From contig NZ_BMKA01000006.1 of the NCBI RefSeq assembly GCF_014643735.1, positions 62,001 to 126,000 on the forward strand: DNA of 64,000 nucleotides. Reading direction: 5' to 3'. A model generated the notes under the pieces. It had not been told where the DNA came from. It was given only the letters and a program-made list of their open reading frames with translations, and searched no databases. The position numbers were made by a program, and so were the translations under genes. The stretch is from Neptunicoccus cionae. Its GTDB lineage: Bacteria; Pseudomonadota; Alphaproteobacteria; Rhodobacterales; Rhodobacteraceae. Positions within the stretch are counted from its first letter, which is position 1. Every line of letters starts with the position of its first letter. Positions 6,526-58,698 of this stretch are shown here, piece by piece.

Positions 6526-6657
6526 GGATTGGATGCCCTGTCTGCGGTTCTGATTGATCTGCTGCTTTATATGCTCAAAAAACTGGCGGAGATAAAGGGC
6601 TCTGCCATCCTGCCGGATACAGAAAGTCCGCGAAGGGGCAGCGGCCTTACAAAAGCG

Positions 6658-7332: not shown

Positions 7333-7460
7333 AAAGCACCCTCGCGGTTGTGCGTTCCAATAATTATCACTGATTCAAGTGTGTATTGCGGCCCGTTCTA
7401 TCCGGTGCTCTATAACACTTAAACCCCGCTCTGTAAGGAATGTTGTCTACGTCCCTGATT

Positions 7461-7475
7461 GTGCTGATTCAGCAC
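7461..7475. promoter_or_regulatory. Perfect 7+1+7 palindrome, possible operator
   Basis: GTGCTGA-T-TCAGCAC, with seven-base arms around one base, lies just downstream of the candidate promoter of the sugar transferase gene, where a repressor would block initiation. The binding protein is unknown and the role is inferred from position. Confidence 0.35.
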
Positions 7476-7479
7476 GCTT

Positions 7480-7507
7480 ATATTACCAGTAAAATGTGTT
7501 GTTTCAA
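7480..7507 (-). promoter_or_regulatory. Candidate sigma-70 promoter of the sugar transferase/galE/sulfotransferase unit
   Basis: Read on the minus strand: TTGAAA (-35, plus positions 7502-7507), a 16-base spacer and TAATAT (-10, 7480-7485). The predicted start would fall on the 7461-7475 palindrome, leaving a leader of about 140 bases before the start at 7332. The match is good but not perfect. Confidence 0.4.
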
Positions 7508-7579
7508 GAATCTCTGTGATCGGCGTCACTCTATCAGAGGATTTGTGCCGAAGCCACCCCCCCTGCTCTGTCCTCAAGC

Positions 7580-10269: not shown

Positions 10270-10278
10270 GGACCGAGC

Positions 10279-41005: not shown

Positions 41006-42001
41006 TCAGCCGACCCGCCGTTTCACCCAGCCAAGGAAGGCAGCGTCGGCGCTGCGCAGTTTCTGGCGGCCGCTGCCGGCCCACCATGCCACCCATTCGG
41101 ATTCCAGCGCGTAGATGTCCCATTCAGGGGCAAGGGCGCGGGCCTGTTCCAGTGCTGTGGCTGAAATCACCGGCTTCTCGCTTGGCTCCAGCACCACGTT
41201 GCGCGGGGCGACGCGGATGATATCGCCGTCTTCCTCAAACAGTTGATAGTCGGGCAGATGGTCAGCGGCGATCATATCGCGGATCATTTTGCGAAACACA
41301 CGGCGGGGCGAATTCGATCCCGATTTCTTCAGCAGGGTTTCCAGACCCACCCGCCATTCCCGCTGGCGCCCGCAATGTTTGCGCGCGATTTCATAGATGC
41401 GCCGCTCCAGCGGTTTGCGCAGGCGAAAGTAATCCCGCGACAGGGTGAGCACGGATTTCGAGGCAATGGCGCGGAACAGCCAGTCCGACAGTTTCACCGA
41501 CACGCTGACCATCCGCCCCCGCCCGGTTTTGCGCACGATCTCCCAGCTTTCGATCAGGCCAAAGCCGCTGGTGGTTTCATGATCGCCTGTGACGATATTG
41601 GTGGTGATGCGGGTGCCTGCCAGACGCTCGAACGCTTCGCGCAGACGTTTGTAACCATCCCCCGAGGTTTCGCGGTTTGTCGCCACCAACAGGTCGTGGG
41701 CCTTGAGGTGCAGCGTCTGGCTGACCGCCCGCCCCGCATTGATCCCCGCCATAAGCTGGCTCATGCAATAGATCAGAATGTCCTTGTCATGGAGCGTTGC
41801 CAATCCGCGCACAGAGGGCGTAATCTCGATCACACTCTCCCCGTGTTCATAGCGCAGAATGCGCCGGTCCGGACGGGTCGAAAGGGAAAACAGCGGATGC
41901 TCCATGGAGGCAAGATCGCTTTTGGGAAGCGCGTCAAATACATCGCACAAGAAAAAATTCGCGGTAGGATACCGGTCGGGTAACAGCCCTGCTGTTGTCA
42001 T
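41006..42001 (-). CDS. repA: Plasmid replication initiator, RepA (RPA family)
   Basis: A 331-residue initiator of the RPA (replication initiator protein A) family found on alphaproteobacterial plasmids. Recognisable parts are RGLATLHDKDILIYCMSQL (about 65-85), GYKRLREAFERLAGTRITTNI, and RLRKPLERRIYEIARKHCG (about 195-213), which carries the winged-helix DNA-binding features. The protein binds iterons at the origin. The three 22-bp iterons and a DnaA box lie about 160-250 bases upstream of its start, on the opposite side from parA, so it also probably autoregulates. Its presence with parAB defines a RepA-type replicon. Confidence 0.9.
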   Translation of the reverse strand: MTTAGLLPDRYPTANFFLCDVFDALPKSDLASMEHPLFSLSTRPDRRILRYEHGESVIEITPSVRGLATLHDKDILIYCMSQLMAGINAGRAVSQTLHLKAHDLLVATNRETSGDGYKRLREAFERLAGTRITTNIVTGDHETTSGFGLIESWEIVRKTGRGRMVSVSVKLSDWLFRAIASKSVLTLSRDYFRLRKPLERRIYEIARKHCGRQREWRVGLETLLKKSGSNSPRRVFRKMIRDMIAADHLPDYQLFEEDGDIIRVAPRNVVLEPSEKPVISATALEQARALAPEWDIYALESEWVAWWAGSGRQKLRSADAAFLGWVKRRVG

Positions 42002-42172: not shown

Positions 42173-42186
42173 AAGCAACCGGAGCT

Positions 42187-42251
42187 AACGTGGTATTGGA
42201 ATCGCTTCAACGTGGTATCAGAGTCACTTAAACGTGGTATCAGATTCACTG
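42187..42251 (+). repeat. Three 22-bp-spaced iterons
   Basis: AACGTGGTAT(T/C)(G/A)GA(A/T/G)TC(G/A)CTT-type units start at 42187, 42209 and 42231, exactly 22 bases apart (two helical turns), so a Rep protein would bind the same face. The core AACGTGGTAT is invariant. They sit upstream of repA and next to a DnaA box. A weaker copy near 42129 is off phase. Confidence 0.85.
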
Positions 42252-42494
42252 CTCTCTTCTGAAAGCCGGATTCTTGCCTTGAAACCAGCTCTTTACCGAA
42301 AGCCCCTGTGTCCCGTAACTTATAAATAACAGGATTCTTAACTAAGTCTTTTTGCAATGGTGATAAATTTGCCAGCGTAGCCCCTGCTGAACCCCCTGTA
42401 TTTGCTTAGAAAAAAGGTTTTTTGTGCTGATAATCCTTTCATGTGCTTCGTTTTTGGGTATATTGGGTAAAAAGCAGCACATACAGGTAAACTC

Positions 42495-43883
42495 ATGGCA
42501 CAGGCAGCCCTTCCTCCGTATTTCAATATCTCCGCAGATGACGCGCTGGCGGAACTTGGCGATCCCGTGGCCACATCGGATTTTGCCCATGTGGCGCAGG
42601 TCTGCACAAGGGGGCGGGAGGATCTGATGTCCCGCGGTCATGTGGTGGATGGCAAGAAATCCCTGCGGCTGTTTTCCACTTGGGAGATCACCAAATATCT
42701 GATCCCTGTGGCCACCCCCCATTTCCGCCGTGTGCTCAAAGCAAACCCGAACCTGCCCCAAGGCGAGAGCGAAACCGAAGGTGGTGCGAAGTGGTTCACG
42801 CTGGACGAGGTTCTGCGCCTGCGGGCCCATTTCGCGACCGAGGGATCGAAGTCCAAGGAATACACCCCCTACCGTCCCAAGGGCCTGCCCGCCAAAATCG
42901 CCGCTGTGGCGAATTTCAAGGGCGGGGTGGGCAAGACCAGCACGGCGGCCCATCTGGCCATGTCAGCGGCGCTGGACGGCTACAGGGTGCTGGTGATTGA
43001 TCTGGACAGCCAAGGCTCCATGACCTCGATCTTCGGGGGCACGGTGAAGGATGAATGGGACACGGTGTTCCCGCTGATCGCGCGGGACTATGCCACCGAC
43101 CTTCAGGCAGAAAACCGGCGCCGTGCGGATCGGGGCGATGCGCCCCTGCCCCTTGATGATACCATGACCGAAGCGTTGAAGGTTACCGCCCAGGAGATCA
43201 CCCAGAAAACCCACTGGCCGAATATTGATCTAATCGGCGCGCAGTTGAACCTCTACTGGGCAGAGTTCCAGATCCCCGTCTGGCGCATGGGGCTGAAAAG
43301 CTGGAAGCTGTGGGATGCGCTGACCAACGCGCTGGAACGGGACGGGGTGCTTGATGATTACGATCTGGTAATTTTGGACACCCCCCCTGCCCTTGGCTAT
43401 CTGACCATCAACGGGCTGACGGCCGCCGATATTCTGATGGTGCCGATGGGGGCGTCTTTTCTTGAATTTGACTCAACGGGTCGGTTCTTTGACATGCTCC
43501 ACGCCACGTTCAATTCCATTGAGGAAGGCGAGAACATGGCGGCCCGCGCACTCGGGCGGGATGAGATCCGTTTTGAATGGGATGCGGTGCGCACGGTGAT
43601 CACCCGCTATGACAGCGGCCAGCAGGCGGAACTGGCGTCTTTGATGCAGGCCTATATGGGGCGGTTTATGACCCCCTACAGGCAGGATTACACCGCTCTG
43701 GTGGGTCAGGCTGGCGAACAGGTCAATGGCATCTACGAGGCCGATTACCGCGATTTCAACCGCGAGACCTATGCCCGCGGGCGCGAAACCTTCGATCAGA
43801 CCTATGCGATGTTCAAAAAGCTGCTGATCGGAAGCTGGCGGCGGGACGAGCTGGAGGCGCACGGCGCCGCTACAAAATCCTAA
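42495..43883 (+). CDS. parA: Plasmid partition ATPase ParA
   Basis: A 462-residue ParA. An N-terminal region of about 130 residues includes a helix-turn-helix-like segment (SLRLFSTWEITKYL, about 55-68) typical of large plasmid ParA proteins that autoregulate. The deviant Walker A is FKGGVGKTSTAAH (about 140-152), Walker A' is LVIDLDSQGSMT (about 170), and Walker B is LVILDTPPALGYL (about 292). It moves plasmid copies along the nucleoid. Divergent from repA; parB follows 69 bases downstream. Confidence 0.93.
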   Translation: MAQAALPPYFNISADDALAELGDPVATSDFAHVAQVCTRGREDLMSRGHVVDGKKSLRLFSTWEITKYLIPVATPHFRRVLKANPNLPQGESETEGGAKWFTLDEVLRLRAHFATEGSKSKEYTPYRPKGLPAKIAAVANFKGGVGKTSTAAHLAMSAALDGYRVLVIDLDSQGSMTSIFGGTVKDEWDTVFPLIARDYATDLQAENRRRADRGDAPLPLDDTMTEALKVTAQEITQKTHWPNIDLIGAQLNLYWAEFQIPVWRMGLKSWKLWDALTNALERDGVLDDYDLVILDTPPALGYLTINGLTAADILMVPMGASFLEFDSTGRFFDMLHATFNSIEEGENMAARALGRDEIRFEWDAVRTVITRYDSGQQAELASLMQAYMGRFMTPYRQDYTALVGQAGEQVNGIYEADYRDFNRETYARGRETFDQTYAMFKKLLIGSWRRDELEAHGAATKS

Positions 43884-43952: not shown

Positions 43953-44966
43953 ATGGCCCGCAAGAGACTGGCTCCGGCAAAACCGGATTTCCTGACACAG
44001 GACGCCCCTGCCCCCGACACCACCTCCGCGCCGGAAGCACCGCGCATGTCCGGCCCGCCGATTGCACAGGTCGCAGCGGAGGCTTCGGCCCATAACGCCC
44101 TGCAAGGTCTGGCCGAGGACATCAGTCGCGCGCGGGCTGCGGGCAAGATGATCCTTGATATTCCGCTGGAAGATATTGCGCCGGATCATCTGGCACGGGA
44201 CCGCATCCGGCTCGACGGCGAGGAAATGAAGGCGCTGATGGATTCCATCCTGCGCCACGGCCAGCGCACCCCGATTGAGGTGATGGAGATTGAAGGGTCG
44301 CAGAAATACGGTCTGATTTCGGGCTGGCGGCGGTTGATGGCGCTGGAGTTTCTGCGCAAGGACAATCCGAACAGCCCGCAATTTGCCACAGTGCAGGCGC
44401 TGCTGCGCAAACCCGATGCCTCGGTCGATGCTTATGTGGCGATGGTTGAGGAAAACGAGATCCGCGTTGGTCTGAGCTACTACGAGCGGGCCAGCGTTGC
44501 TGCCGAGGCGGTCAAGCACGGGGTGTTTGAGACCGAGAAACAGGCGTTGTTGTCGCTGTTTGCCACCGCCAGCCGCCCCAAACGCTCTCGCATTCGGTCC
44601 TTCATCGAAATCTATCACGCCCTTGGCGATGTGCTTTGCTTTCCGGGGCATATTCCCGAACGGCTGGGCCTGTCGCTGGTGGAAGGGCTGCGGCGTGATC
44701 CTGAACTTGCAGACCGGATCGAACGGGCCCTGCAGGAGAAACAACCAACAACGCCTGATGCAGAGCTGGCCGTTTTGGCGCCATTGGCCGCACCGCCCAA
44801 AGAACCAAAGCCTGCGACCGCTAAAAAAGACGCGCCGGTCCGCCAGAAACTTGGCAACGGGCTGGAAGTGTCTTTGAAGCAGGGGCGCATTGAAATCAGA
44901 GGGGAAAATCTGGACGAGAAGACCCTTGAAAGGGTCGTATCCCTGCTGGAACAAGAGTCTTTTTAG
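43953..44966 (+). CDS. parB: Plasmid partition protein ParB
   Basis: A 337-residue ParB. The ParB N-terminal nuclease-like/CTPase domain (about 60-170) includes DSILRHGQRTPIEV (about 95) and GWRRLMALEFLR (about 130). A helix-turn-helix central domain follows (about 180-250), and the C-terminal dimerisation region is about 290-337. It binds parS. The 18-base palindromes at 44987 and 46253 are the best candidate sites, and the first lies only 20 bases past its stop. Confidence 0.92.
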   Translation: MARKRLAPAKPDFLTQDAPAPDTTSAPEAPRMSGPPIAQVAAEASAHNALQGLAEDISRARAAGKMILDIPLEDIAPDHLARDRIRLDGEEMKALMDSILRHGQRTPIEVMEIEGSQKYGLISGWRRLMALEFLRKDNPNSPQFATVQALLRKPDASVDAYVAMVEENEIRVGLSYYERASVAAEAVKHGVFETEKQALLSLFATASRPKRSRIRSFIEIYHALGDVLCFPGHIPERLGLSLVEGLRRDPELADRIERALQEKQPTTPDAELAVLAPLAAPPKEPKPATAKKDAPVRQKLGNGLEVSLKQGRIEIRGENLDEKTLERVVSLLEQESF

Positions 44967-44986: not shown

Positions 44987-45004
44987 TGTTCCGCGTGCGG
45001 AACA
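44987..45004. promoter_or_regulatory. Palindrome 1, candidate parS centromere
   Basis: TGTTCCGC-GT-GCGGAACA: eight-base arms with a two-base centre, 20 bases after the parB stop. Size, TGTT/AACA ends and position fit a ParB-binding site. An identical element, in reverse, is at 46253. Confidence 0.7.
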
Positions 45005-45024
45005 ATCAGGGATATGACAGTTTT

Positions 45025-45067
45025 AGGCGCGGCGCGGCAGAACAACCGCAGCCGCGCCTTTGTTTTT
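45025..45067 (+). terminator. Strong terminator of the parAB operon
   Basis: AGGCGCGGC (45025-45033) pairs with GCCGCGCCT (45051-45059), extended by an inner GCGG/CCGC pairing, and TTTGTTTTT follows. It isolates parAB from the photoreceptor kinase gene. Confidence 0.85.
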
Positions 45068-45231
45068 AAGGGGTTCAAAGATCGAAACCGCTTCACAGCC
45101 CCATTTTTACCCGCTAGACAAGAGTACGGTAGGAAAGCTTGCTCTCTGCCGGTGAGTTTGCGGCATAGGGGGAACTGCGTGGCGCATCGGGGAAACCGGG
45201 ATTGTATAATCCCGAAACGGGAGAGTCTCCT

Positions 45232-46233
45232 TTGAACGTTGCTAATGGCCGTGCGCGGTGGGATCTGGATAATGACAAGGCCATCGCAGAGGCCGTGCGT
45301 CATGCGCGGATTCCCTTGTGTATTTCGGACCCGAACCTACCAGACAATCCGATTGTTTTTGCCAATGCCGCCTTTCTGGAGCTGACCGGATATTCCGAAG
45401 CCGAAGTGGTCGGGCGCAATTGTCGTTTCTTGCAAGGCCCCGAGACCACCCGCGAAAGCGTGGAAGCGGTGCGCAATGCCATTCTTGCCCAGAAGGTGGA
45501 AACGGTGGAGATCATCAACTACCGCGCTGACGGGTCGCGCTTTGACAACGCGCTACAGATCGGCCCTATTCTGGATGACGCTGGCAACCTTGTGTTCATC
45601 TTCGGCTCGCAGCTGGATGTAACGCAAAAGCGCCAGCAGCAGGAACGGGCCCGTAAACTGGCCAATGAAGAACTGGTGCACCGCCTGCGCAATATCGTCA
45701 ATGTGATGTCCGTTGTTATCAAGATGTCTGCGCGGGAAGAGCTGGACACCAAAACGCTCGGCGCGTTGGTGATACAGCGTCTGCAAGCCCTCAGCGATGC
45801 CCATTTCACGGCGATCACCCAGCCTGTGGATGTGGGCGTGGAGCTTGGGGAACTGGCACAGGGGGTTCTGGCGGCCTATGCCCCGAAAGGCCTCGAGCAA
45901 TTTGCATTGCAGGGGCCGCAGGTGGCGCTGCAGGGGCATCTTTTGTCCTGCATGTCGCTGGGCCTGCATGAATTCGCTACCAATTCTGTCAAACACGGTG
46001 CGCTCGGGGCCGAGACTGGTAAGGTCACGCTGGACTGGAGCGTAGAGTCTGGGGAAGACGGTGCGCGGCATCTGGTGCTTCACTGGGCCGAGAGTGGCGG
46101 ACCGAAAGTGGTTCAGCCCGAGCGGCGGAGCGGATCGAAGATTGTGAACGATCTGTTTGTGGCTGTGGGGGGCACGATCACACTGGACTGGGCGGAAACC
46201 GGACTGTTGGCCCGTGTCAGCTTTCCGCTGTAG
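45232..46233 (+). CDS. LOV-domain HWE-family histidine kinase
   Basis: A 333-residue protein. The LOV photosensor has GRNCRFLQG with the flavin-binding Cys at about residue 64, and a PAS/PAC C-terminal part (ADGSRFDNALQIGPI). The kinase part is HWE type: H-box EELVHRLRNIVNVM (His about 150), N-box HEFATNSVKHG (Asn about 251) and HWAE (Trp about 285, Glu 287). It has no membrane helix. Start TTG 45232 has GGAGAG eight bases upstream; an earlier TTG at 45202 lacks one. It is flanked by two candidate parS palindromes and has no receiver gene beside it. Confidence 0.9.
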   Translation: MNVANGRARWDLDNDKAIAEAVRHARIPLCISDPNLPDNPIVFANAAFLELTGYSEAEVVGRNCRFLQGPETTRESVEAVRNAILAQKVETVEIINYRADGSRFDNALQIGPILDDAGNLVFIFGSQLDVTQKRQQQERARKLANEELVHRLRNIVNVMSVVIKMSAREELDTKTLGALVIQRLQALSDAHFTAITQPVDVGVELGELAQGVLAAYAPKGLEQFALQGPQVALQGHLLSCMSLGLHEFATNSVKHGALGAETGKVTLDWSVESGEDGARHLVLHWAESGGPKVVQPERRSGSKIVNDLFVAVGGTITLDWAETGLLARVSFPL

Positions 46234-46248
46234 ACTCTGATCCGGATT

Positions 46249-46274
46249 GAAATGTTCCGCACGCGGAACATTTC
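46249..46274. promoter_or_regulatory. Palindrome 2, candidate parS centromere
   Basis: The 18-base core TGTTCCGC-AC-GCGGAACA (46253-46270) is the exact reverse complement of palindrome 1. Here the arms extend to 12 bases (GAAATGTTCCGC, 46249-46260; GCGGAACATTTC, 46263-46274). It lies 15 bases after the kinase gene. Confidence 0.7.
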
Positions 46275-46288
46275 AGAAGCGCCCTGCC

Positions 46289-47263
46289 CTACAATCCGCC
46301 CAGAAACGTGTAGGAATAGGTCCAGCTGTTGGTATAGCGGTTCTCGATTTGTAACTGGCCGGATTTGACCGCAAGGCTGCTGGTGTTGACTGATCCGGTT
46401 GTCCCGTCCAGCACCGCCGTGCCGAGATTGGCAAAGCTGCTGCCGGTATAAATTGTGTCACAGGCCAGCGAGCCGCCGGTGTCATAACAGAAAATCCCGC
46501 TGTGGCTGCTTTGGGGATAGCTGGCGTGTACCACGGTGATCAGCACAAATCCCCCCGCGCCCGGCGTGTCGATCAGGCCCACAGCATCCTGATCCACCGT
46601 CAGCTTGCCGCTGGTCAGGCATTTGGCCTGTGTTGTGGCGCTGGCGGGATCAAAGGACAGGGCGGTGTCAAAACTGCTGCCATCCGCGCTGACCTTGATG
46701 CGAAAGCTGTCATCCCCTGCCAGCCCCATTTCCGCCCGTCCCGACCAGTTGCTTTGATACAGCAAAGATGCGGTGTCGCTGCTGCTGGCTTTGTTAATCT
46801 TGAGCTGATGCCCTGCCCCGTCATGGCTCAGCAATGTGGCGTCCCCCGATACCGCCAGCGGATTGGTCCCATCGGATACGGTGTTGACGCCAAGGCCGCT
46901 CAGGTTTTGCAGGGTGACACTGTTGCCCCAGCCACTGCCGTCAAAGGTAATTCCCGCCGCCTCGTCCAGCGCATAGGCGCGCCAGCCGGCCTGTGGCAGG
47001 GTGAAAGCCCATGCTGCCCCCTGCCAGACGGCTATGGCGCCCTCCTGCCCTTCCCATCCGCCGCTGGCGGTGGCCGCGACCACGTAGCAATCCCCGATGG
47101 CGGGGCTGGCCGGGGGGCTGGCAATGGCGCGGCTGATCACAGTCAGTTGCACCAGCAGGTCAAGCATACGGATTGATTCATTGTGGGTGACATGTTTTTG
47201 CGCCTGCGCGGGCAGGATATAGGGCAGGCTAAGGATCGGGGAGGTGTCTGGGGAAACGGTCAT
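46289..47263 (-). CDS. DUF2793 protein, phage-tail/GTA-like
   Basis: A 324-residue protein. The first 125 residues form a DUF2793 domain (SLPYILPAQAQKHVTHNESIRMLD, AIGDCYVVAATASGGWEGQEG), found in phage and gene-transfer-agent tails of Alphaproteobacteria. The rest is a beta-rich repeat region with serine/glycine/threonine-rich stretches, as in tail fibres. ATG 47263 is the start of that domain; the open frame continues upstream without homology. No capsid, portal or terminase gene is nearby, so it is an isolated phage-derived gene, perhaps reused as a surface protein. Confidence 0.75.
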   Translation of the reverse strand: MTVSPDTSPILSLPYILPAQAQKHVTHNESIRMLDLLVQLTVISRAIASPPASPAIGDCYVVAATASGGWEGQEGAIAVWQGAAWAFTLPQAGWRAYALDEAAGITFDGSGWGNSVTLQNLSGLGVNTVSDGTNPLAVSGDATLLSHDGAGHQLKINKASSSDTASLLYQSNWSGRAEMGLAGDDSFRIKVSADGSSFDTALSFDPASATTQAKCLTSGKLTVDQDAVGLIDTPGAGGFVLITVVHASYPQSSHSGIFCYDTGGSLACDTIYTGSSFANLGTAVLDGTTGSVNTSSLAVKSGQLQIENRYTNSWTYSYTFLGGL

Positions 47264-48718
<1,455 letters not shown>

Positions 48719-48722
48719 GACA

Positions 48723-49736
48723 ATGGTAGCGGACGGGCAGCATATCCTGCTGGACCAGCGGCTGGTGGCGGTTGTGGCCACCTTCAATCGTTCTGCCGCG
48801 CTGCAAAAAACCATTGCCCGTCTGCTGGATGAACCCTGCGAGGCGATTGTGGTGGTGGACAACGGCTCCACCGATGGCACGCGGGAGTGGCTGCACGACC
48901 AGACTGACGCGCGGATTTATCCGGTGTTCCCCAAGGACAACCTCGGCGGGGCAGGGGGGTTTGAGCTGGGCATGCATGTGGCGATGGAGCAATTCGATCC
49001 CGATTGGGTTGTGGTCATGGATGATGACGCCCGTCCCGACCCCGGTGCCTTTATCCGCTTTGTCGATGCAGCCCATCACGGCTGGGATGTGCTGGCAGCG
49101 GCGGTTTACTACCCCGATGGCAGTATCTGCGAAATGAACCGCCCCTCGCGCAATCCCTTCTGGCATCTGCGTGAAGCCCTTGGCACCATCTGGGGAACCC
49201 TGCGGGGGCAGGGGCGGCAGGGGTTTCATATTCCCGACAGTGCCTATACCGGCGCGGATGTGCTGCCGGTGGATGCAGCCTCTTTCGTGGGGATGTTTGT
49301 GTCCCGTGCGGTGATCCAGAAGATCGGCCTGCCCGATGGCAAGATGTTCATCTACGGCGATGATGTGGGCTACAGCCTGCGGGCACGGCAGGCGGATTTC
49401 ACCATTGGTTTTGCGCCGGACCTGCGCTTTGAACACGAATGTTCCACTTTTATCGAAAATAAGGTCTACCGGCCCTATTGGAAGATCTATTACAACTACC
49501 GCAACGGGCTGATCAATTACCGCGCGGCGGCTGGAATTTATTTCTGGTTTGTAGCGCCCGTGTTTATTGCGAAATGGTTCCGCAATGCAAAGCATTACGG
49601 TGAAGATAAACATATATTTATCAACCTGTTACGCCGCGCAATCAAAGACGGTTTCGCCAACCGCAGAGAGGTTAGCCACACAGAGGTTCTGGCCCTTGTG
49701 GAGTCATTAAAAACGAAAGATAGGCCCGCGCCATGA
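48723..49736 (+). CDS. Galactofuranosyltransferase-like GT2 (GlfT1 type)
   Basis: A 337-residue GT2 enzyme. VAVVATFNRSAALQKTI opens the fold, VVVDNGSTDGTREWL and FPKDNLGGAGGFELGM follow, and VVMDDDARPDPGAF (about 100) is the metal-binding DDD/DxD site. The N-L-G-G-A-G-G-F segment is typical of galactofuranosyltransferases. Gene order glf then GT supports a galactofuranosyl donor. Its last four bases overlap the next gene's ATG (ATGA). Confidence 0.8.
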   Translation: MVADGQHILLDQRLVAVVATFNRSAALQKTIARLLDEPCEAIVVVDNGSTDGTREWLHDQTDARIYPVFPKDNLGGAGGFELGMHVAMEQFDPDWVVVMDDDARPDPGAFIRFVDAAHHGWDVLAAAVYYPDGSICEMNRPSRNPFWHLREALGTIWGTLRGQGRQGFHIPDSAYTGADVLPVDAASFVGMFVSRAVIQKIGLPDGKMFIYGDDVGYSLRARQADFTIGFAPDLRFEHECSTFIENKVYRPYWKIYYNYRNGLINYRAAAGIYFWFVAPVFIAKWFRNAKHYGEDKHIFINLLRRAIKDGFANRREVSHTEVLALVESLKTKDRPAP

Positions 49737-50707
49737 CCTGTGAACTTGTATTCCATCTCGGGGACCGGAAAACCGGCAGCACCTCGATCCAGAAGACCCT
49801 GACCGATGGCTTGTGGAACAGCGACAGCCGGTCCCTGTATTATACTGCCAACGGGCATAACGGTCCGCTCGCCCATGCGCTGGCAACAGGGGCGAATCCC
49901 GATAATATCCAGCAGCGTTTTACAAGTCTCGGTCAGCGGCTGGCCCGTCATGCCGCGGATGCAGATGTGGCGGTTGTCTCTAGCGAGGGCTTTGAGGATG
50001 TTGCCCCCAAGACCCTTAAACTGGCGCTTGAGGCTTATCTGCCCGACTATGCAGACGCCGTGCGCCTGATTGCCTATGTGCGGCCCCACGGGGCGCGGGT
50101 GCTGTCGGGGTATAGCGAGCAGGTCAAACGGGGCCAGAGTGTCGGCAGCCTTGAGTCTTATTTCAGCGAAGGCATGGCGCTGGGGCGGTTTGATGCCTTT
50201 CCACGGCTGTCCGAATGGCGCGAAGTCTTCGGGGACGCCTTCACCCTGCGCCCGATGATCCGCGACGGTCTGTATCAGGACTGTGTCGTGCAGGACTTTA
50301 TGCGCTATGCGCTGCAAAGTGAGGATTTCTCCCTGTCATGGCAGCCGGATGCAAACCCGTCCCTGTGTGCCCAAGACATCGCCGTGTTGCGGGACATTCA
50401 CCAGCGGCTTGACGGGGCAGGGGTGACACCGGCACAGGCGGGGTATCTCGGTTCGGCGATCGGGGAGCAAATGGCAGAGCATCCAATCCCGAATGGCCAG
50501 CGGCTGCATCTGCCCGCAGATTTGGCAGAGCAGGTGATCGCGGGATGCAAACAGGATGCAGAGGCACTTGACCGGATGTTCTTTGACGCCACCCCGATGA
50601 GCGATGCGCTTAATGCTTTGAAAGGGGCGGGTGATACCCCTGCCGCTCCAGGTCCGGATGCCGCTCGGATTGCCGGTCTGATGGGCGCGTGGCTCGGCCG
50701 GTTGTAA
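49733..50707 (+). CDS. Sulfotransferase-like protein 4
   Basis: A 324-residue protein beginning with the PAPS loop HLGDRKTGSTSIQKTL. A paralogue of the gene at 52589: both share HLGDRKTGST and VRLIAYVRPHG/VRLLAYVRPHG segments. The conserved Arg-Pro-His (AYVRPHG, about 113) fits the 3'-phosphate site. It is coupled to the galactofuranosyltransferase-like gene by a four-base overlap, which suggests sulfation of the galactofuranan. PAPS synthesis genes are not visible in the window. Confidence 0.65.
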   Translation: MTCELVFHLGDRKTGSTSIQKTLTDGLWNSDSRSLYYTANGHNGPLAHALATGANPDNIQQRFTSLGQRLARHAADADVAVVSSEGFEDVAPKTLKLALEAYLPDYADAVRLIAYVRPHGARVLSGYSEQVKRGQSVGSLESYFSEGMALGRFDAFPRLSEWREVFGDAFTLRPMIRDGLYQDCVVQDFMRYALQSEDFSLSWQPDANPSLCAQDIAVLRDIHQRLDGAGVTPAQAGYLGSAIGEQMAEHPIPNGQRLHLPADLAEQVIAGCKQDAEALDRMFFDATPMSDALNALKGAGDTPAAPGPDAARIAGLMGAWLGRL

Positions 50708-50748
50708 GCGCCGCGCCGCATTTTGACAGCCAGTTATTTAGTCGAAGA

Positions 50749-50772
50749 AACAAGGGGTCAGCGCCCCTTGTT
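50749..50772. terminator. Bidirectional hairpin between convergent genes
   Basis: AACAAGGGG (50749-50757) and CCCCTTGTT (50764-50772) pair around a six-base TCAGCG loop. It ends both the plus-strand sulfotransferase transcript and the minus-strand GlfT2-like transcript, overlapping the latter's stop. Confidence 0.55.
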
Positions 50773-52535
50773 CAACTGTCTTTATAAACCTCGTCCCAAT
50801 AACTGGCAGCGGCGATCCTTGGATAGCTCTCACGGTAGTCTTTCACCAGTTCGGGATAGGAATTGCGCAGTTTCCAGAACAGCTTTACGCCCCGCCACAT
50901 CAGGCCGATCCCCCGCCCCGCAGAGCGGCGGGTGGTATAGGCTTTGGTCCGGTCGGTGTTAAGATAGGTGATCCTGCGCGCGCCCCAACAGATATGCAGG
51001 CTGCCACGGTCCTGGGGCGCAACCACCACAGTGCCAGCCCCGAGCATGGGCAGTAGATGTCCGTTCAGGCTGAATTTATAAAGCGCCAGCTTCCAGCGGG
51101 GGATACGACGATGGGGATCGGCCACATTGTCCAGCGTACTCGCATCCACAGGGCGCCAGACTTCGTTTCCGACCATGGATTTGATCCGCCCACGGCGTTC
51201 GGCCATGTCTTTATTATTCAAAAAGAACTCCGGTCCCTGCATCACATCTTCCCATGCCAGAAGACAGGTTTCCATCGTATCATACTGGAATTTAATGATA
51301 TTCCTCAGCAGGAACTTCAGGCCGATCTTGCCCACGCCGGTGCTGCCAATTTCCATGCTGGGAAGGGACAAATGATGCGCCATATGGCTGCGCAAATCCA
51401 GATACCATGTCAGCGGGTTCTCTTTTTCGATGAACCCGTCCTGAAAGGAGACCACCCCGTTCAACAGGGTGATGTTGAAATCATTGGCAATGGAAAAGCT
51501 GACATCATCGCCGCGTACAAAGAACGGATAGGGGTGGTATTGCGCGTGTTCCACGGGAAAGGCGAAGAACCACCAGCCGCCGTAAAGTGTAGGGTAGTGG
51601 TCTCGTTCGGATTCAAATTCCATTTTGGAAAGCGCAGTCAGATCCCGCAGGTCCTGAAAATTGTGCAAAGGGTGGCAGCTCTGGTTGAACCACGCGCCGT
51701 TTTCCCACATGGCCCATTTATGGGTGTTGTTGATCATCGCCCCCGCAATCGCGGTGCGGCTGTCTGTGGCAAGGGCCAGAAACACAAAGCTGCGATGCAG
51801 GCTTTCCATCGGGAAGGCGGCATCGTCATCGGTGAACAGCACATGGGTGAAGTCCCGTTTGATCGCCGTCTGCAACCCCCGTGCAAAACCGCCAGCCCCG
51901 CCCAGATTATCATTGGGGTAATAGCTGGTCTGCGGGCTTTCAGAGACTTGCGCGCTTTTGCCGTTGTCCACCACGAGGATATGAATATTCTCTTTATATT
52001 CATGGTTCTCTAGGTAGCCCTCCAAGCGTTTTACCGTGTTTTGTACCGCTGTTTCCCGTTTGAACGTGGTAATCGAAACCGCCAGACGGGGCAGGGCAGA
52101 CAGAGCCCGTTTTGTGGTGAAACGGGCCCCCGTCAGCCGTGCATCGCTAAGCGCCTTCAGACGGAAGTAGATCATCCCTTTTTGCGAGGTTTCGCTATAG
52201 CTGCTGATGTCTACCAGTGTGGCCTCACCGCTAAGGGTCAGGATCTCGCATTGCTGGGTGTTCCAGGACTGGTCGGGCAGGGCGTGGTAGACTTCCAGTT
52301 CCAGCGTGCCGCTGCCTGTCAGTTCCAGCCACAGATTGTCCAGCGCGCAGGCCTTGTGCCATTTGCCGATTGAAAGCGCGTTGAAGTAAGTGCCAAAATC
52401 CGCTGTTCCGCCCGCGCTGAATTGAAGGGTTTCGCTGGGACGGTCCAGCCCCACCAGATTGTTCAGGCGCACATAAAGGTCGATCTCGGTACAGATATCG
52501 GGATCGGGAAAGGCAATATTCTGTAAGGTAATCAT
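50772..52535 (-). CDS. Galactofuranosyltransferase-like protein (GlfT2 type)
   Basis: A 587-residue enzyme resembling the galactan chain-extending GlfT2. A beta-sandwich N-terminal domain (about 1-150) precedes a GT-A catalytic domain with VSITTFKRETAVQNTVKRL (about 158), YYPNDNLGGAGGFARGL (about 205), the metal site FTDDDAAFP (about 235) and WWFFAFP (about 320). The C-terminal helical domain runs to the end. ATG 52535 has AAGGAT upstream and starts MITLQNIAFP. It likely elongates a galactofuranose chain. It shares a minus-strand cluster with two sulfotransferases. Confidence 0.82.
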   Translation of the reverse strand: MITLQNIAFPDPDICTEIDLYVRLNNLVGLDRPSETLQFSAGGTADFGTYFNALSIGKWHKACALDNLWLELTGSGTLELEVYHALPDQSWNTQQCEILTLSGEATLVDISSYSETSQKGMIYFRLKALSDARLTGARFTTKRALSALPRLAVSITTFKRETAVQNTVKRLEGYLENHEYKENIHILVVDNGKSAQVSESPQTSYYPNDNLGGAGGFARGLQTAIKRDFTHVLFTDDDAAFPMESLHRSFVFLALATDSRTAIAGAMINNTHKWAMWENGAWFNQSCHPLHNFQDLRDLTALSKMEFESERDHYPTLYGGWWFFAFPVEHAQYHPYPFFVRGDDVSFSIANDFNITLLNGVVSFQDGFIEKENPLTWYLDLRSHMAHHLSLPSMEIGSTGVGKIGLKFLLRNIIKFQYDTMETCLLAWEDVMQGPEFFLNNKDMAERRGRIKSMVGNEVWRPVDASTLDNVADPHRRIPRWKLALYKFSLNGHLLPMLGAGTVVVAPQDRGSLHICWGARRITYLNTDRTKAYTTRRSAGRGIGLMWRGVKLFWKLRNSYPELVKDYRESYPRIAAASYWDEVYKDS

Positions 52536-52588
52536 AAGTATATCCTTTGTGCGCAAAAAAATCGGGGCGCTAAATCGGGTAAAGGGCT

Positions 52589-53734
52589 TTAAAACAGGTC
52601 AAGAAGATCATCCTCATTGAATTCCTGATCGCCGGTCGTCTTTTGGTTTTTCGCCCCGCCCCCTTTGGGGCCAGTGCCTTTGGCTGCACGGGGCCCATCT
52701 TTAAGGATTTCCCGCAAAGCAGAGCCGTTCGGGGCTTTCCGGCTGGTCAACAGACCGGCCCAGATGTCTACCATGCGGATGGCTTCGGGCGAAAGGTGGT
52801 CTTCGGCGGCAATGGACTGGGGCGCTTTAACCGCCTTGGAACGAGCGGCCAGCAGGGCGTCTTTCATCGGGGTTTCGGGGGCAAAAAACGCCTGATCCAG
52901 GGCCTGTGCATCGGCCAGATAAGCCTCTTGCACCGCTTCGGCCAGATCGGCGTGCAGGGCCAGTTTGGTGTGGTTTGCGGGCTGTTCCGGTGCCTCGGCC
53001 AGCAGGGTTCCAAGGGTCTTGCCAAGACTGACCTGAAACTTCGTGCTGTTGGGCACGGCCGCGATCCGGCTTTGCAAAAGCCGCATCATTGCGAGGTCTT
53101 CCAGTGACATGGAGGGATTGCTTTGGGGGGAATCCGCAAGCTGATGGGGGGTGTCCCCCAGCAGAAACTCTGCGAAATCCGCAACAATATCCCCGTTCAC
53201 AAGTGCGCCCCGTACGAAGGGGCGCAGGGTGAAGCTGCTGCCGAAAGTTTCGCGCCAGCGGTTGAACCGTGGCGTATACTGTAGCGGTCTTTTTTCCAGC
53301 CGCATGGCGTGATAGGCGTCCAGATCCCCGTCAAAATGCCCGAGTTTTATGGCCTCGGCGTAGTTGGACACCAGCCGGTCCCCATGGGGGCGCACATAGG
53401 CCAGCAACCGGACCCGCCCCAGAAGATCGGGAAAGAATTCCTTCAGGGCCTCTTGCAGCGCGGCGGGATCAACGGATTCAAAATGTTCGGCCGAGATCAC
53501 CGCTATATCCGCATCAGAGCGGTGGATCCGTTTGGCCAGCTTGCCGAACCGTTGGTCCCGCTGGCTTGCCAGCGCCTTGACAGAAAGGGTCTTGGCCAGC
53601 GGAATGTGATTGTTGCCGGTGGGATAGAATATGCTGGCATCAGGGCTTTGGATCGCCCCAGCGACCAGCGCGTCCTGAATGGCGGTACTGCCGGTTTTGC
53701 GGTCCCCCAGATGAATGACAAGCTGCTTGACCAT
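52589..53734 (-). CDS. Sulfotransferase-like protein 5
   Basis: A 381-residue paralogue of the gene at 49733, starting MVKQLVIHLGDRKTGSTAIQ. The C-terminal 70 residues are lysine- and acidic-rich with no fold (KGTGPKGGGAKNQKTTGDQE), which is unusual and could be a protein-protein tail. The N-terminal 300 residues carry the same ordering of motifs as its paralogue. It lies upstream of the GlfT2-like gene and just downstream of another sulfotransferase gene, with 11 bases between. Confidence 0.65.
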   Translation of the reverse strand: MVKQLVIHLGDRKTGSTAIQDALVAGAIQSPDASIFYPTGNNHIPLAKTLSVKALASQRDQRFGKLAKRIHRSDADIAVISAEHFESVDPAALQEALKEFFPDLLGRVRLLAYVRPHGDRLVSNYAEAIKLGHFDGDLDAYHAMRLEKRPLQYTPRFNRWRETFGSSFTLRPFVRGALVNGDIVADFAEFLLGDTPHQLADSPQSNPSMSLEDLAMMRLLQSRIAAVPNSTKFQVSLGKTLGTLLAEAPEQPANHTKLALHADLAEAVQEAYLADAQALDQAFFAPETPMKDALLAARSKAVKAPQSIAAEDHLSPEAIRMVDIWAGLLTSRKAPNGSALREILKDGPRAAKGTGPKGGGAKNQKTTGDQEFNEDDLLDLF

Positions 53735-53745
53735 TTCGTTCTATC

Positions 53746-54741
53746 CTATTGTTTGGACTTGGCTTTATGCGCATTGATCAAGGCGCGCACCAGCGGGGCC
53801 ACAAGGGTTTCCATCGTCTCGTAACTGTCCGCTGGTAGTTTCAGCTCTGATATTTTTGCGTTCTCGTCGGGGACAGGATCATGAAACAGTTCGTCCCGCC
53901 CGAAATAGCGTTCCGCCACCCATGCGTTGCCAGCGGCATGTTCGTCCAGAATTATACGACGCTGTTCATGGCTCAGGATCAGGGAACCGGCGGCTTCAGG
54001 CTGTGTTTCGCGGATGATTTCATCCACCTTGCCACAGGCACGGTCAAACACCACGCGGTAATCGGTGGGGGCTTCATCCAGCGGCAGGCAGCGCATCATC
54101 TCGCTGACCAGTGGCGTAAGGCTGGCATTGCGCTTGGGCGGGGTGGTGAAACTGTCATCCAGCTCCAGCCCCATCAGTGCTGCGAAATTCGCAATCGGGC
54201 CTTCGGGCATCTGGTCCCGTTCAAACACGTTCAGCAGCACATTTTCGCGGCCAAACAGTTTTTCGAGATGGGTGATATGGGCTTTGTAATCCATCCAGGG
54301 AAATTGGGCACGGCGCTCAAAAAACTCATTTACTGTCAGATGGCACAGGGCAGGGCGCCACTGCCATTTCACATTCTGGAAATACCAGCTTTCGAGCCAC
54401 AGATCCTGACGGCGCAGGCAGAAGATCACTTTCACATCAAAATGCTCGCGGAACTTGGCCAGCACCGACAGATCGCGCCGACAGGAGATATCCTCATCGC
54501 TGAGCAGGATGGAATGGATGTCCATCTGTTTGCTCTCAGCGCGGAAGTTCAGATCCTTGGCCACCTCATGGGGGTTTTTGCTGCCGTCAAACAACTGGTT
54601 CATCAGCTTCATGTGGCGTGGGGTGTTATAGGGATAAAGCACGCCCTTAGTGCGCAGGGCTTTGGCATTCTTTGCCATGAAGGACTGGATTGAACTGGTG
54701 GCCGTGCGGTGGTTGCCAATGTGTAAATACAATCTGCGCAT
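53746..54741 (-). CDS. Sulfotransferase-like protein 6
   Basis: A 331-residue protein. HIGNHRTATSSIQSF (about 6-20) is a variant PAPS loop with RTATSS in place of KTGTTS, and KVIFCLRRQDLWLESWYF (about 105) fits the PAPS 3'-phosphate segment. It heads the minus-strand unit that continues to the GlfT2-like gene. It differs enough from the other five to suggest a different acceptor or lost activity. Confidence 0.62.
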   Translation of the reverse strand: MRRLYLHIGNHRTATSSIQSFMAKNAKALRTKGVLYPYNTPRHMKLMNQLFDGSKNPHEVAKDLNFRAESKQMDIHSILLSDEDISCRRDLSVLAKFREHFDVKVIFCLRRQDLWLESWYFQNVKWQWRPALCHLTVNEFFERRAQFPWMDYKAHITHLEKLFGRENVLLNVFERDQMPEGPIANFAALMGLELDDSFTTPPKRNASLTPLVSEMMRCLPLDEAPTDYRVVFDRACGKVDEIIRETQPEAAGSLILSHEQRRIILDEHAAGNAWVAERYFGRDELFHDPVPDENAKISELKLPADSYETMETLVAPLVRALINAHKAKSKQ

Positions 54742-54837
54742 GAAATACAGTACCCTCTGAGTGTCGCCTGATGTGTTTAGTCAAGTTGCCTGACGGGCAA
54801 AACCCTATTTCTGCGGATTTGGCAAGGAAAAGGGCCT

Positions 54838-55620
54838 TTAAGCGTTGTCCTGCTGGGGTGCCCGATCTTTTCGGGCCGTCCATGCCAACTGGGGTAGGAT
54901 AGCAAAACAGGCGCCATAGCGTCGCGCCAGTCGCGCAGGATTTCCTGCCAGTCGCCAAAGCCACTCTAACGCCAGCCGTCGTACGATACGGGGCGCGCGT
55001 TGTTGTGTTCCGGCAATGAAATCCAGGCCGGCGCCAATCGACACAAAACCGCAGGCGGGCAGGGCTTCTGCGCCACGTACGGCCAAGATTTCCTGCTTGG
55101 GGGCGCCAAGGGCCAGAAAACACAAGCCTGCGCCGCTGGCCCCCAATTTGGCGATCAGTTCGTCCGCTTCCTTGTTGGTGGGATCAAACCCGAAAGGAGG
55201 AGCAATCTGCGCCACGATCTCAAGACCGGGATGGGCCGCTTCCAACGCTGTAGCTGTGGCGGATAATGTGTCCGGAGTTGACCCGAACAACGCCACCGGA
55301 ACACCGTGCTTGGCTGCGATATTCGCCAGAGGGGTGATCAGTTCCGATCCTGGCACGAGATCCACCGGCCGCCCCGCCAGACGCGATAACCAGACGATCG
55401 GATTGCCATCGGCGACCACATGGCTGTGGTGAAGGTAGGCCGCCTTGAAATCCGGATTTTGACGCAATTTGACACAGTGGTCCAAATTCAGCGTGGCAAG
55501 CGTAAAGCCCTGTCTCTTTGCCAAACGATCCGAAATTTCCCCAAGGAGGGCATTGCGGTTCGGGTGCGTGATACGCACTTTGCCTGCCGGGGCGCTCTGT
55601 CCCCAGTAAATATCCGCCAT
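54838..55620 (-). CDS. WecG/TagA/CpsF-family glycosyltransferase (GT26)
   Basis: A 260-residue GT26 enzyme. LATLNLDHCVKLRQN (about 42) matches the TLNPEHV-type motif, VVADGNPIVWLSRL (about 68) the active-site Asp, FGSTPD, and FLALGAPKQEIL (about 170) the G-x-P-K-Q-E motif of the family. It adds a second sugar (such as ManNAcA, Man or Glc) to an undecaprenyl-diphospho-sugar, so it would follow the initiating transferase at 6.7-7.3 kb. It is divergent from the GT2 gene at 55826. Confidence 0.9.
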   Translation of the reverse strand: MADIYWGQSAPAGKVRITHPNRNALLGEISDRLAKRQGFTLATLNLDHCVKLRQNPDFKAAYLHHSHVVADGNPIVWLSRLAGRPVDLVPGSELITPLANIAAKHGVPVALFGSTPDTLSATATALEAAHPGLEIVAQIAPPFGFDPTNKEADELIAKLGASGAGLCFLALGAPKQEILAVRGAEALPACGFVSIGAGLDFIAGTQQRAPRIVRRLALEWLWRLAGNPARLARRYGACFAILPQLAWTARKDRAPQQDNA

Positions 55621-55825
55621 AATCTTCCGCCTAACCTTATAAATAAATTCTGATATTGCCTTCGTAGAATGCTAAATTTTCTCCTGAACGGATCTGTAAC
55701 CAGAGCGCTATGTATGTCGCTTCTTTGTGCTAAGAATAGGACACAGCGAAGCGCACTTTGCCCGAAGTGACGCCAAGTTAGACAGAAACAGGCAAGACCG
55801 GCAAGACGGACCAAGAGGTTTGAGT

Positions 55826-56671
55826 ATGACAGTGGCAGTGAACACCCAGTTTAGCATTATCATCGCGGCGAACAATGAAGAGGATTATATCGGGCCCTGT
55901 CTGGATGCTGTGCTGGCGCAGGATCCAGAGGCCGGTGTGTTGGAGGTCATTGTTGCTGCAAATGCCTGCACGGATCGTACCGAAGACATCGTAACAGGGT
56001 ATCTCCCTCGCTTCACCGCACGAGGGTGGCAGTTAACCTGTCTGCATCTGGACCCGCCTGGCAAGGTGGGCGCGTTGAATGCAGGTGATCGGGCGGCCAT
56101 AGGCGCCATGCGCGCCTATCTGGATGCGGATGTGATCTGTGACCCTGCCTTGATCGGCCAACTTCGGGCTGCCCTGTCGTCGGAGCGCCCGCTTTATGCC
56201 ACTGGCACGCTGGTTGTGACACCGGCCCGCAGCTGGATTACGCGGGCCTATGCCAAATTCTGGCAGCAACTGCCTTTTGTCAAAGGCGGCGCGGTGGGGG
56301 CGGGGTTGTTTGCAGTGAACGGTGCGGGCCGTGCCCTTTGGGGGGACTTCCCCGAGGTTATCTCGGATGACACATTTGTGCGGCTGAATTTCCCGCCGGA
56401 TCAGCGGATTGAGGTGCCAGCGGCCTATCACTGGCCCATGATCGAAGGCTGGTTCGGGCTGGTCAAAGTGCGCCGCCGTCAGGATGCCGGAGTGCGTGAA
56501 ATTTATGATCTCTACCCCCATCTGGCCGCCAATGAAGCCAAGGTGGGTTTGGGACGGAAGGAGCTTGTGTCGCTGGCGTTGCGATATCCGGTCAGTTTTG
56601 CTGTTTATGTCGGCGTGGCGCTGAACGTACGCGCACGTCCTGCGCCTGCGGGCTGGACCCGTGGACGATAG
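55826..56671 (+). CDS. GT2-family glycosyltransferase
   Basis: A 281-residue GT2 enzyme. FSIIIAANNEEDYIGPCLDAVL opens the fold, HLDPPGKVGALNAG holds the donor-binding lysine, and AYLDADVICD (about 110) is the DAD metal site. DDTFVRLNFP (about 195) supplies the conserved acidic acceptor-side residue. ATG 55826 has AAGAGG eight bases upstream; the frame extends to 55727 without conserved sequence. It heads a probable operon with the acyltransferase and GMC oxidoreductase. Confidence 0.85.
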   Translation: MTVAVNTQFSIIIAANNEEDYIGPCLDAVLAQDPEAGVLEVIVAANACTDRTEDIVTGYLPRFTARGWQLTCLHLDPPGKVGALNAGDRAAIGAMRAYLDADVICDPALIGQLRAALSSERPLYATGTLVVTPARSWITRAYAKFWQQLPFVKGGAVGAGLFAVNGAGRALWGDFPEVISDDTFVRLNFPPDQRIEVPAAYHWPMIEGWFGLVKVRRRQDAGVREIYDLYPHLAANEAKVGLGRKELVSLALRYPVSFAVYVGVALNVRARPAPAGWTRGR

Positions 56672-56709
56672 CATCGTATTTGGGAAGAACATATTTAAGG
56701 ATCATTTGA

Positions 56710-58698
56710 TTGCATCAATACCGTAGAGAGATCGATGGACTGCGCGCGCTCGCCATCTTGCCGGTCTTGTTCTTTCACTTCGATATACCCGGATTTTCTG
56801 GCGGTTTTGTCGGAGTGGATATTTTTTTCGTCATTTCGGGCTTTTTGATTGGCGGTATCCTCTGGGGGGAGTTGTCAGACACCGGACGGGTGCGGTTGGG
56901 GCATTTCTATCTGCGCCGGATCCGGCGGTTGGCTCCGGTTTACTTTGCGGTGATCCTGACCTGCCTTGTGGTTGGCTGGCTGATCATGCTGCCGTTTGAT
57001 TTCCGCGCCCTTGGCAAAGAGATCATCAGTTCCTCGGTATATCTGTCCAACGTCTATTTCTTTTCCGAAGCAGGCTATTTCGACACGGCGGCCAAGGAAA
57101 AGATCCTGTTGCACACATGGTCGCTGTCGGTGGAGGAACAGTTTTATATCTTCCTGCCTTTGACCCTGCTTTTGCTCAAAGCTGTGCGATCCTCCCTTCC
57201 GGTTGTGCTAGGTCTTGTCGGGCTGGTCTCGTTTATTGCCTGTATTGCCGTGACCCCCCAGTCCCAGACTGCGACATTCTATTTGTTCCCGTTTCGCGCA
57301 TGGGAGATGCTGGCAGGTGTCTTACTGGCTATCGCGGGCGTGCAGCGGGGCCTGACATGGGATCTGCACCCCGCGCTGTCTTGGGGGGGCGTTGCGCTGA
57401 TGGGGGCGGGGGTGACGCTGCTGACGCCTGACCCGAGCTTTCCGGGCTGGAAAGCAGCCGTGCCGGTGCTGGGGGCCGTGCTGATCATCGCCAATGGAAA
57501 GAACGCCAACCTGATCAATCAGGTGCTCTCCAGTCGGGTATTGGTGTTCATCGGGTTGATTTCCTATTCGCTTTATCTTTGGCATTGGCCGATTGTGACG
57601 CTGTCCAGTTATTATTGGGGTGAGGCGGGTTCGCTCCCTGTACGTCTGGTGAAAATCGTTTTGTCTGTTGGCGTGGCTTACCTCAGCTGGCGGTTCATCG
57701 AAGGGCCTACCCGCCGTGCCAGAATACCCCCCGCGTGGTTGTTCACCGCAGCAGGTGTTGCAACGGCTGGGGCACTTGCGGCTGGGGCGCTGTTGTTTGT
57801 CAGGGACGGACTGCCGGAGCGGTTTGATCCGCAGGTGCGCACCCATATCGAAGCCACGCGCGGATTCCGGCAGGACTGGCGTCGCTGTATCGTACCGGCA
57901 GAGGGTGGTTTTTCCGGGATTGAAGTCTGCCCCATAGGCCCTGAAGGTGAACCGCGTTTGTTGATCTGGGGTGACAGTCATGTGCGCGCCTTCAAGGAGG
58001 GGCTGGAGCAGGCGGCGTTTGAACATAATGTGCCTGCGCTCATCATCTGGCGGGCGGGTTGCGTGCCGGCTTTTGGATTGGAAAAGTCCGAGAACACTTC
58101 GACGTCGGTGCAAAATACGGCGTGCGGTGAGAAGAACCGGCAGATTGAAGCCGCCCTGAGCAAAGGGGCCTTTGATACGGTACTGCTGATCGGTCGCTGG
58201 ACCTATTATACCCAAGGGGTTGGCGTCGGGCGCGATGTGCAAAACACGATCAAGATTAGCGCCACCGATGGGCACGAAACCCCGCAGGATGCGCTGGTCC
58301 GCCAAGCGATGCAGGACAGTATCGCCACCCTGACGGAACAGGGTCGCAAGGTTTTTGTGTTGCGTCAGGCTCCGGAAATATTCGACTATGATTCCCGTGT
58401 GGTCGCACGGGATCTGGCCCATGGACGTATGAATCAGGAGGATGTGGCAAGGCTTTCTGTGACCCCGCTGGAAGACCTTGAACTGCGCAACGCCGAGGCC
58501 GACCGGATGCTCGCCGCCCTGTCAGGACAGGCCGAGGTAATCGACCCGTGGCCGTTCTTTTGTGATGACACCGGTTGTTCGGCCATGTGGGACGGTCGTG
58601 CGGAATATCTGGACAACAACCACGTGATTAATACCACTGCCAAACGCCTGCGCGGGATTTTTGCCCCAGTGTTTGACGCTGCCGGAGGCACGCCATGA
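56710..58698 (+). CDS. OafA/YrhL-type O-acyltransferase with SGNH domain
   Basis: A 662-residue two-domain enzyme. Residues 1-365 are about 10-11 membrane helices of the acyltransferase 3 family, with YRREIDGLRALAILPVLFFH (His and Arg near residue 20 are the catalytic pair) and RRIRRLAPVYF. Residues about 390-662 are a periplasmic SGNH domain with GDSH (about 420) and a C-terminal D-x-x-H (DNNH, about 634). It moves acetyl or other acyl groups to surface sugars. Start is TTG with AAGGAT eight bases upstream. It overlaps the GMC gene by four bases. Confidence 0.9.
   Translation: MHQYRREIDGLRALAILPVLFFHFDIPGFSGGFVGVDIFFVISGFLIGGILWGELSDTGRVRLGHFYLRRIRRLAPVYFAVILTCLVVGWLIMLPFDFRALGKEIISSSVYLSNVYFFSEAGYFDTAAKEKILLHTWSLSVEEQFYIFLPLTLLLLKAVRSSLPVVLGLVGLVSFIACIAVTPQSQTATFYLFPFRAWEMLAGVLLAIAGVQRGLTWDLHPALSWGGVALMGAGVTLLTPDPSFPGWKAAVPVLGAVLIIANGKNANLINQVLSSRVLVFIGLISYSLYLWHWPIVTLSSYYWGEAGSLPVRLVKIVLSVGVAYLSWRFIEGPTRRARIPPAWLFTAAGVATAGALAAGALLFVRDGLPERFDPQVRTHIEATRGFRQDWRRCIVPAEGGFSGIEVCPIGPEGEPRLLIWGDSHVRAFKEGLEQAAFEHNVPALIIWRAGCVPAFGLEKSENTSTSVQNTACGEKNRQIEAALSKGAFDTVLLIGRWTYYTQGVGVGRDVQNTIKISATDGHETPQDALVRQAMQDSIATLTEQGRKVFVLRQAPEIFDYDSRVVARDLAHGRMNQEDVARLSVTPLEDLELRNAEADRMLAALSGQAEVIDPWPFFCDDTGCSAMWDGRAEYLDNNHVINTTAKRLRGIFAPVFDAAGGTP

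Follow-up and report, generated by a model that had tools for sequence, protein, structure and literature searches.

The parS sites of repABC plasmids in the Rhodobacterales are palindromes near the partition genes, multiplied downstream over about 0.5-4 kb and also placed in the open reading frames that follow and in intergenic regions, according to a published description (PMC9040568). A single reciprocal exchange in the palindrome, at the third and third-to-last positions, is said in another report to separate the compatibility groups RepABC-1 and RepABC-2 (PMC5613091). For ParB and Noc, the switch from parS to NBS involves four residues (173, 179, 184 and 201) that were tested by experiment (PMC7383237). 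Roseobacter genome reports also mention RepA-I and parS.

The DNA analyzed here is a stretch of 64,000 nucleotides from Neptunicoccus cionae, referred to as the window, and its locus is a RepA(PF10134)-ParA-ParB plasmid module of the Rhodobacterales kind (Table 1). The RPA-family initiator gene is divergent from parAB, and annotated relatives have the same order. ParA of the window shares 73-86% identity over the aligned parts with ParA of related plasmids and contigs. ParB scored 21.2 bits against ParB_N and 58.8 bits against TIGR03454 RepB, both under the respective cut-offs of 26.3 and 201.5. Judging from their position, the CGTGGTAT repeats are possibly iterons of the replication origin. 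Two palindromes lie around a light-sensing kinase gene next to this module. We consider it highly probable that they are parS sites of a RepA-type parAB plasmid; the kinase gene is probably cargo, and the rare form of the sites (C-form) together with Arg213 of ParB probably marks a specificity class.

Table 1. Features of the partition locus, in window coordinates
Feature	Position	Strand	Sequence	Basis
RepA-type replication initiator (PF10134)	41006..42001	-		Pfam 322.7 bits, cut-off 27
Three direct repeats	42180..42255	.	beginning CGTGGTAT	between repA and parA; read by eye
ParA partition ATPase	42495..43883	+		AAA_31 105.5 bits, cut-off 27
ParB	43953..44966	+		homologues annotated ParB; predicted recognition helix 208-224 with Arg213
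parS site 1 (putative)	44987..45004	.	TGTTCCGCGTGCGGAACA	sequence scan and comparison with relatives
Probable intrinsic terminator of parAB	45025..45068	+	hairpin, then UUUGUUUUU	hairpin -27 kcal/mol, z -4.24
LOV-HWE histidine kinase	45202..46233	+		PAS_9 68.2 bits, HWE_HK 44.5 bits, both over cut-off
parS site 2 (putative)	46253..46270	.	TGTTCCGCACGCGGAACA	core of 28-bp palindrome 46248-46275

A sequence-only reading of this DNA had reported a pair of identical inverted 18-bp palindromes at 44987 and 46253, and the sequence scan found both. They have the form TGTTCCGC-GT/AC-GCGGAACA and are exact reverse complements of each other, but each copy is itself palindromic, so the label "inverted" is carried by the central GT/AC alone. 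The count of two copies was also correct, as no third copy was present in the 64 kb at up to three mismatches; the 18-mer gave four matches at this level (two places, both strands) against 0.12 expected, and none of 100 shuffles reached four. When the 64 kb were scanned for perfect palindromes (arm length 8, gap 0-4), eight entries were obtained, and only sites 1 and 2 among them have a sequence in common. Site 1 begins 20 bases past the parB stop codon, as claimed, whereas site 2 lies 19 and not 15 bases past that of the kinase gene. Site 2 extends to its 28-bp palindrome with 13-bp arms, and site 1 has no extension. A search of the non-subscription literature with the long palindrome sequences found no paper, and the short TGTTCCGC returned unrelated papers only.

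The palindromes were compared with 16 related plasmid stretches, hand-picked from the homology match lists of an annotated collection. The commonest form in these relatives is TGTTTCGCNNGCGAAACA, with arms that are mostly TGTTTCGC as against TGTTCCGC in the window; the relatives' form is called the T-form here, and the C-form of the window differs from it by T5 to C and A14 to G in the 18-mer. The outer TGTTTC of the T-form is also that of chromosomal parS. A palindrome of at least 18 bases with the core TTTCGCNNGCGAAA was found in 13 of the 16 stretches. Two others (L131 and L136) have shorter palindromes of 14 and 16 bases, and the stretch of L138 contains none near parB, its sole copy being 3.7 kb off. 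When whole records were scanned, 25 copies of the exact 18-mer TGTTYCGCNNGCGRAACA were counted in 12 of the 16 plasmids, with none in the other four and none for the reversed-pattern control. The plasmids measure 32-193 kb, and none of the 25 copies is farther than about 10.4 kb from parB. The sites occupy the gap between parA and parB, parB itself, the region just after parB, or positions one to several kb off, sometimes within cargo genes; coding sequence is hit in parB of L071, L139 and L141 and in rfbD of L130. As a rule, the relatives have several parS-like sites spread over a few kb. This recurrence at parB lends good comparative support to the earlier proposal that the palindromes are ParB-binding centromeres, and the palindrome next to parAB is most likely parS.

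The proposal had also expected further copies near parAB and few elsewhere in the genome. This expectation held for the C-form (see below); the commoner T-form is in some genomes also present away from the best ParB. Among 30 genomes chosen by ParB (the 29 next-best after G002, plus G346), TGTTYCGCNNGCGRAACA was present in 26, with many copies at the best ParB, and absent from four. Among the places listed, copies away from the best ParB were seen in some genomes. G138 has the highest number of the 30, with 19 copies scattered across many contigs, which may belong to fragmented plasmids, the chromosome or a mixed assembly; copies on other contigs also occurred in G300 (seven copies, five contigs), G131 and G157.

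Since both palindromes closely follow stop codons, at the distances given above, and are predicted to form RNA hairpins of -10 and -16.7 kcal/mol, they might be read as terminators of transcription, or as hairpins at the 3' ends, for parB and the kinase gene. However, an intrinsic terminator combines a hairpin with a T-run, and no T-run follows either palindrome. The terminator scan lists neither of them, and the promoter and terminator pattern scan as a whole gave no more hits than shuffled sequence did. Downstream of site 1, between this site and the kinase gene, there is another hairpin, which does have a T-run; it is absent from the pattern scan, whose loop limit is 8. Moreover, what recurs in the parA-parB gap and in coding sequence of relatives is the same sequence and not merely a hairpin, and the palindrome sequence goes with the type of ParB. 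A role of the palindromes as terminators is thus highly improbable.

Two matching copies that bracket one gene could also mark the termini of a small mobile element, or be sites of recombination, by which the kinase gene arrived; this gene is not beside parB in the relatives examined. Yet the copies are short and their flanks have no common identity: over four comparisons of 60-base flanks, 14 to 21 of 60 bases were equal, which gives no indication that a longer segment was duplicated. The open reading frames of at least 100 amino acids between the sites are the kinase and antisense frames, with no recombinase recognized among them, and the same palindromes surround parB in relatives without the kinase. 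A mobile element of this kind is extremely improbable, while insertion of the kinase gene between duplicated sites, with no duplication in the flanks, is possible.

A scan of a collection of 257 billion bases for the C-form returned at least 119 stretches, most of which are probably background because about 60 are expected by chance (our own arithmetic, assuming equal base frequencies); the scan of viral contigs gave 10 stretches. A ParB homologue (E 1e-5) was found in three of the at least 119 stretches, namely L035, L071 (Rhodobacteraceae bacterium DSL-40) and L081 (Amaricoccus solimangrovi), and the palindrome is at parB in all three. Among 394 genomes of one family, the C-form 18-mer occurred in one, G002, the genome of L071, with three copies within 1.6 kb of parB; a ParB homologue, near or distant, was detected in 236 of the 394. 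One more relative, L158 in G135, was reached through its ParB, and the best site there is CGTTCCGC. When 295 genomes were searched for the C-form 16-mer, four copies in G135 and three in G002, both of them Arg213 genomes, were located within about 4 kb of parB. Elsewhere, six genomes have a single copy each, with other central bases; in three of them (G056, G097 and G287) the best ParB listed lies on a different contig. The reversed control gave about 33 single copies in the 295 genomes. The genome of L081, G003, contains six exact C-form copies, five of them on the parB contig. A 16-kb stretch of this genome (L244) showed seven relaxed C-form cores in 6.7 kb around repA and parAB (5327-12008), three of them in a row and 36 bases apart. 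The idea that C-form and T-form plasmids share a cell was not supported, as G001, G002 and G003 lack the T-form 18-mer.

The ParB proteins were aligned to find residues that go with the form of the site. The first alignment comprised 47 sequences (5 with the C-form, 40 with the T-form and 2 without a site), and one tested column separated the groups without overlap: residue 213 was Arg in all five C-form and Lys in all 40 T-form proteins. Residues 219 and 233 also differ by group, apart from a single T-form protein of the 40 at each position. Adding loci from 60 more places and removing identical ParBs (L154, L157, L159, L191 and L209) gave 105 distinct ones; the near-copies L143 and L212 were both kept. 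Arg213 was found in 5 of the 105, all with the C-form. The other 100 have Lys213, of which 79 go with the T-form and none with the C-form; for the remaining 21, no TT-any-CGC palindrome was seen at distances of up to 2.5 kb from parB. Since L035, L071 and L081 had been found through the C-form palindrome itself, the ParB-side test of the association consists of the two other C-form members, the window and L158. A well-supported clade of 20 more distant ParBs (L222-L241) was also observed, in which all have Lys213 and 15 have no TT-any-CGC palindrome near parB.

The AlphaFold model of the window ParB is poor overall (mean pLDDT 51.7), and its usable part is the helix-turn-helix, with pLDDT values of 69 for residues 201-210 and 87 for 211-220. 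Residue 213 is in the predicted recognition helix of this model (208-224). Foldseek gave no match to the model at E 0.001 or better; the top rows, all weaker than this value, were Noc-DNA, SopB-DNA and P1 ParB-DNA complexes, with KorB-DNA lower and unrelated rows between. By profile alignment, residue 213 is aligned with the Asn of HVAN in Helicobacter pylori ParB (4umk), which we take to be equivalent to Caulobacter N178. N178 contacts parS, according to the ParB/Noc study (PMC7383237). An Arg that reads guanine where Lys met adenine would be chemically sensible.

The association of Arg213 with the C-form suggests a specificity switch, but the tree offers only one or two independent contrasts: one if the count is limited to branches with good support, two in the best tree. 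The independent-pair test, in which the 21 rows with neither form were entered by hand, had too few pairs for significance. One tree required two changes for the C-form, and a single clade was recovered in 0% of 200 bootstrap trees, with a bootstrap that had not settled. A tree of 46 chosen rows built without the recognition-helix columns required three changes, and one clade was not rejected (AU p 0.116). Convergence is not claimed, because a single clade of the five C-form members was not rejected. A stronger version would hold that Lys213 to Arg, together with T5:A14 to C5:G14, made a new partition class, possibly twice (in the window lineage and in that of DSL-40, Amaricoccus and G135), and that in the window lineage ParB loading sets the expression of the enclosed kinase gene; we regard this version as very unlikely.

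The gene between the sites is predicted to encode a LOV domain and an HWE histidine kinase domain. PF13426 and PF07536 both scored over cut-off, and the conserved Cys motif GRNCRFLQ is present; read by eye, the true start may be a TTG near 45232 after GGGAGA. The best match among solved structures was 6ph4, and 4r3a was aligned over residues 36-343. The score against the NCBIfam blue-light kinase equivalog was 259 bits, under its cut-off of 450. Conserved flanking of the kinase gene by the palindromes, which the sequence-only reading had put forward as a check, was not found. The kinase is absent from the annotated neighbours of parB in the 16 relatives, and in a search of 30 genomes (27 chosen by ParB, plus G001-G003) some homologue was present in 21, but in none of the 30 on the contig that carries the best ParB. 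The nearest relative detected has 62% identity and is located in G001, on a contig other than that of parB, where its neighbours look, by reading, like chromosomal housekeeping genes; the surrounding 16 kb showed no palindrome with the same core. Among 40 listed of 974 matching plasmid records, identity to the kinase was 41.4% or less. The gene is probably host-derived.

In relatives, the space between two sites is taken by a gene of the UDP-glucose/GDP-mannose dehydrogenase family, by a pair of genes (one ArsR-like, one AHSA1-like) or by the gene for a calcium-binding repeat protein (all but the first named by reading of the sequences). The Leisingera plasmid L140, for example, has identical 32-bp parS-like palindromes at 6059-6090 and 7570-7601 that bracket the dehydrogenase family gene, in the same layout as the window kinase. 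The bracketing of the kinase gene looks incidental, and the gene looks like passing, unrelated cargo, because the parS groups around parB in relatives also enclose unrelated genes. Recombinase-family genes are annotated near the partition module of L139 (6421-7308) and L144 (958-1851), and they could account for turnover of cargo beside parS.

The more dramatic claim of the sequence-only reading was that ParB spreads from the flanking parS sites over the kinase gene and represses or gates it, so that light signalling is tied to plasmid copy number or segregation state. The whole gene does lie between the two putative parS sites, which are separated by about 1.25 kb, and this distance is inside the known spreading range of ParB proteins. 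However, the placement is not conserved, as shown by the 30 genomes above, the relatives enclose the other genes just named in a multi-site layout that is usual, and nothing was seen in the sequence that singles out the kinase. A link of the kinase to partition or copy number is therefore not supported, and gating by ParB, a speculative idea, is very unlikely; the kinase is most likely bystander cargo.

RepA-type plasmids of the Rhodobacterales are known as biofilm plasmids with rhamnose operons. This background fits the polysaccharide genes in the window and the rfb genes beside several relatives. The surface polysaccharide gene content of the window extends over 46289-58698, where a gene for a DUF2793 protein adjoins site 2, a UDP-galactopyranose mutase gene is located at 47495-48718 and an acyltransferase-SGNH fusion at 56815-58698. 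DUF2793 genes were also observed near parAB or repA in L138 and L142.

In the mechanism we propose, ParB would bind each palindrome through its helix-turn-helix and load onto the neighbouring DNA, and ParA would move the ParB-DNA complex so that the plasmid reaches both daughter cells. Plasmids of this kind usually have at least two sites at a distance of no more than a few kb from parB. The kinase gene would be one of several unrelated genes between parS copies and probably has its own transcription, because a strong hairpin and T-run follow parB. A ParB with Arg213 and C-form sites would probably constitute a separate partition-specificity class, likened here to the single reciprocal palindrome exchanges of repABC plasmids, in which residue 213 may be causal and compatibility may be affected. 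Interest now centres on the rare variant of the site and the ParB residue that goes with it, and an exchange precedent is reported for repABC plasmids. The comparison provides a simple way to recognize parS, together with one variant, across a large Rhodobacterales plasmid family, and it names one ParB residue and one base pair as candidates for a swap, which bears on the origin of plasmid compatibility classes. With the kinase most likely a bystander, the more dramatic reading falls away.

Compared with known systems, the arms of the window palindromes fit the repABC parS consensus GTTNNNNGCNNNNAAC, and the multi-site layout is alike (PMC9040568). Unlike the repABC plasmids, the window has RepA/PF10134 rather than RepC as initiator and a central GT/AC rather than GC. 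The window exchange is at positions 5 and 14 of the 18-mer, on a RepA-type plasmid, and a linked ParB residue is proposed here. The window kinase resembles the blue-light LOV-HWE histidine kinases 6ph4 and 4r3a in its GRNCRFLQ LOV domain and HWE domain, but it is under the NCBIfam equivalog cut-off and is plasmid-borne beside parB. As in the ParB/Noc switch (PMC7383237), a few changes in DNA-reading residues go with base changes per half-site; unlike in that switch, the candidate residue of the window ParB is at another position and comes from comparison only.
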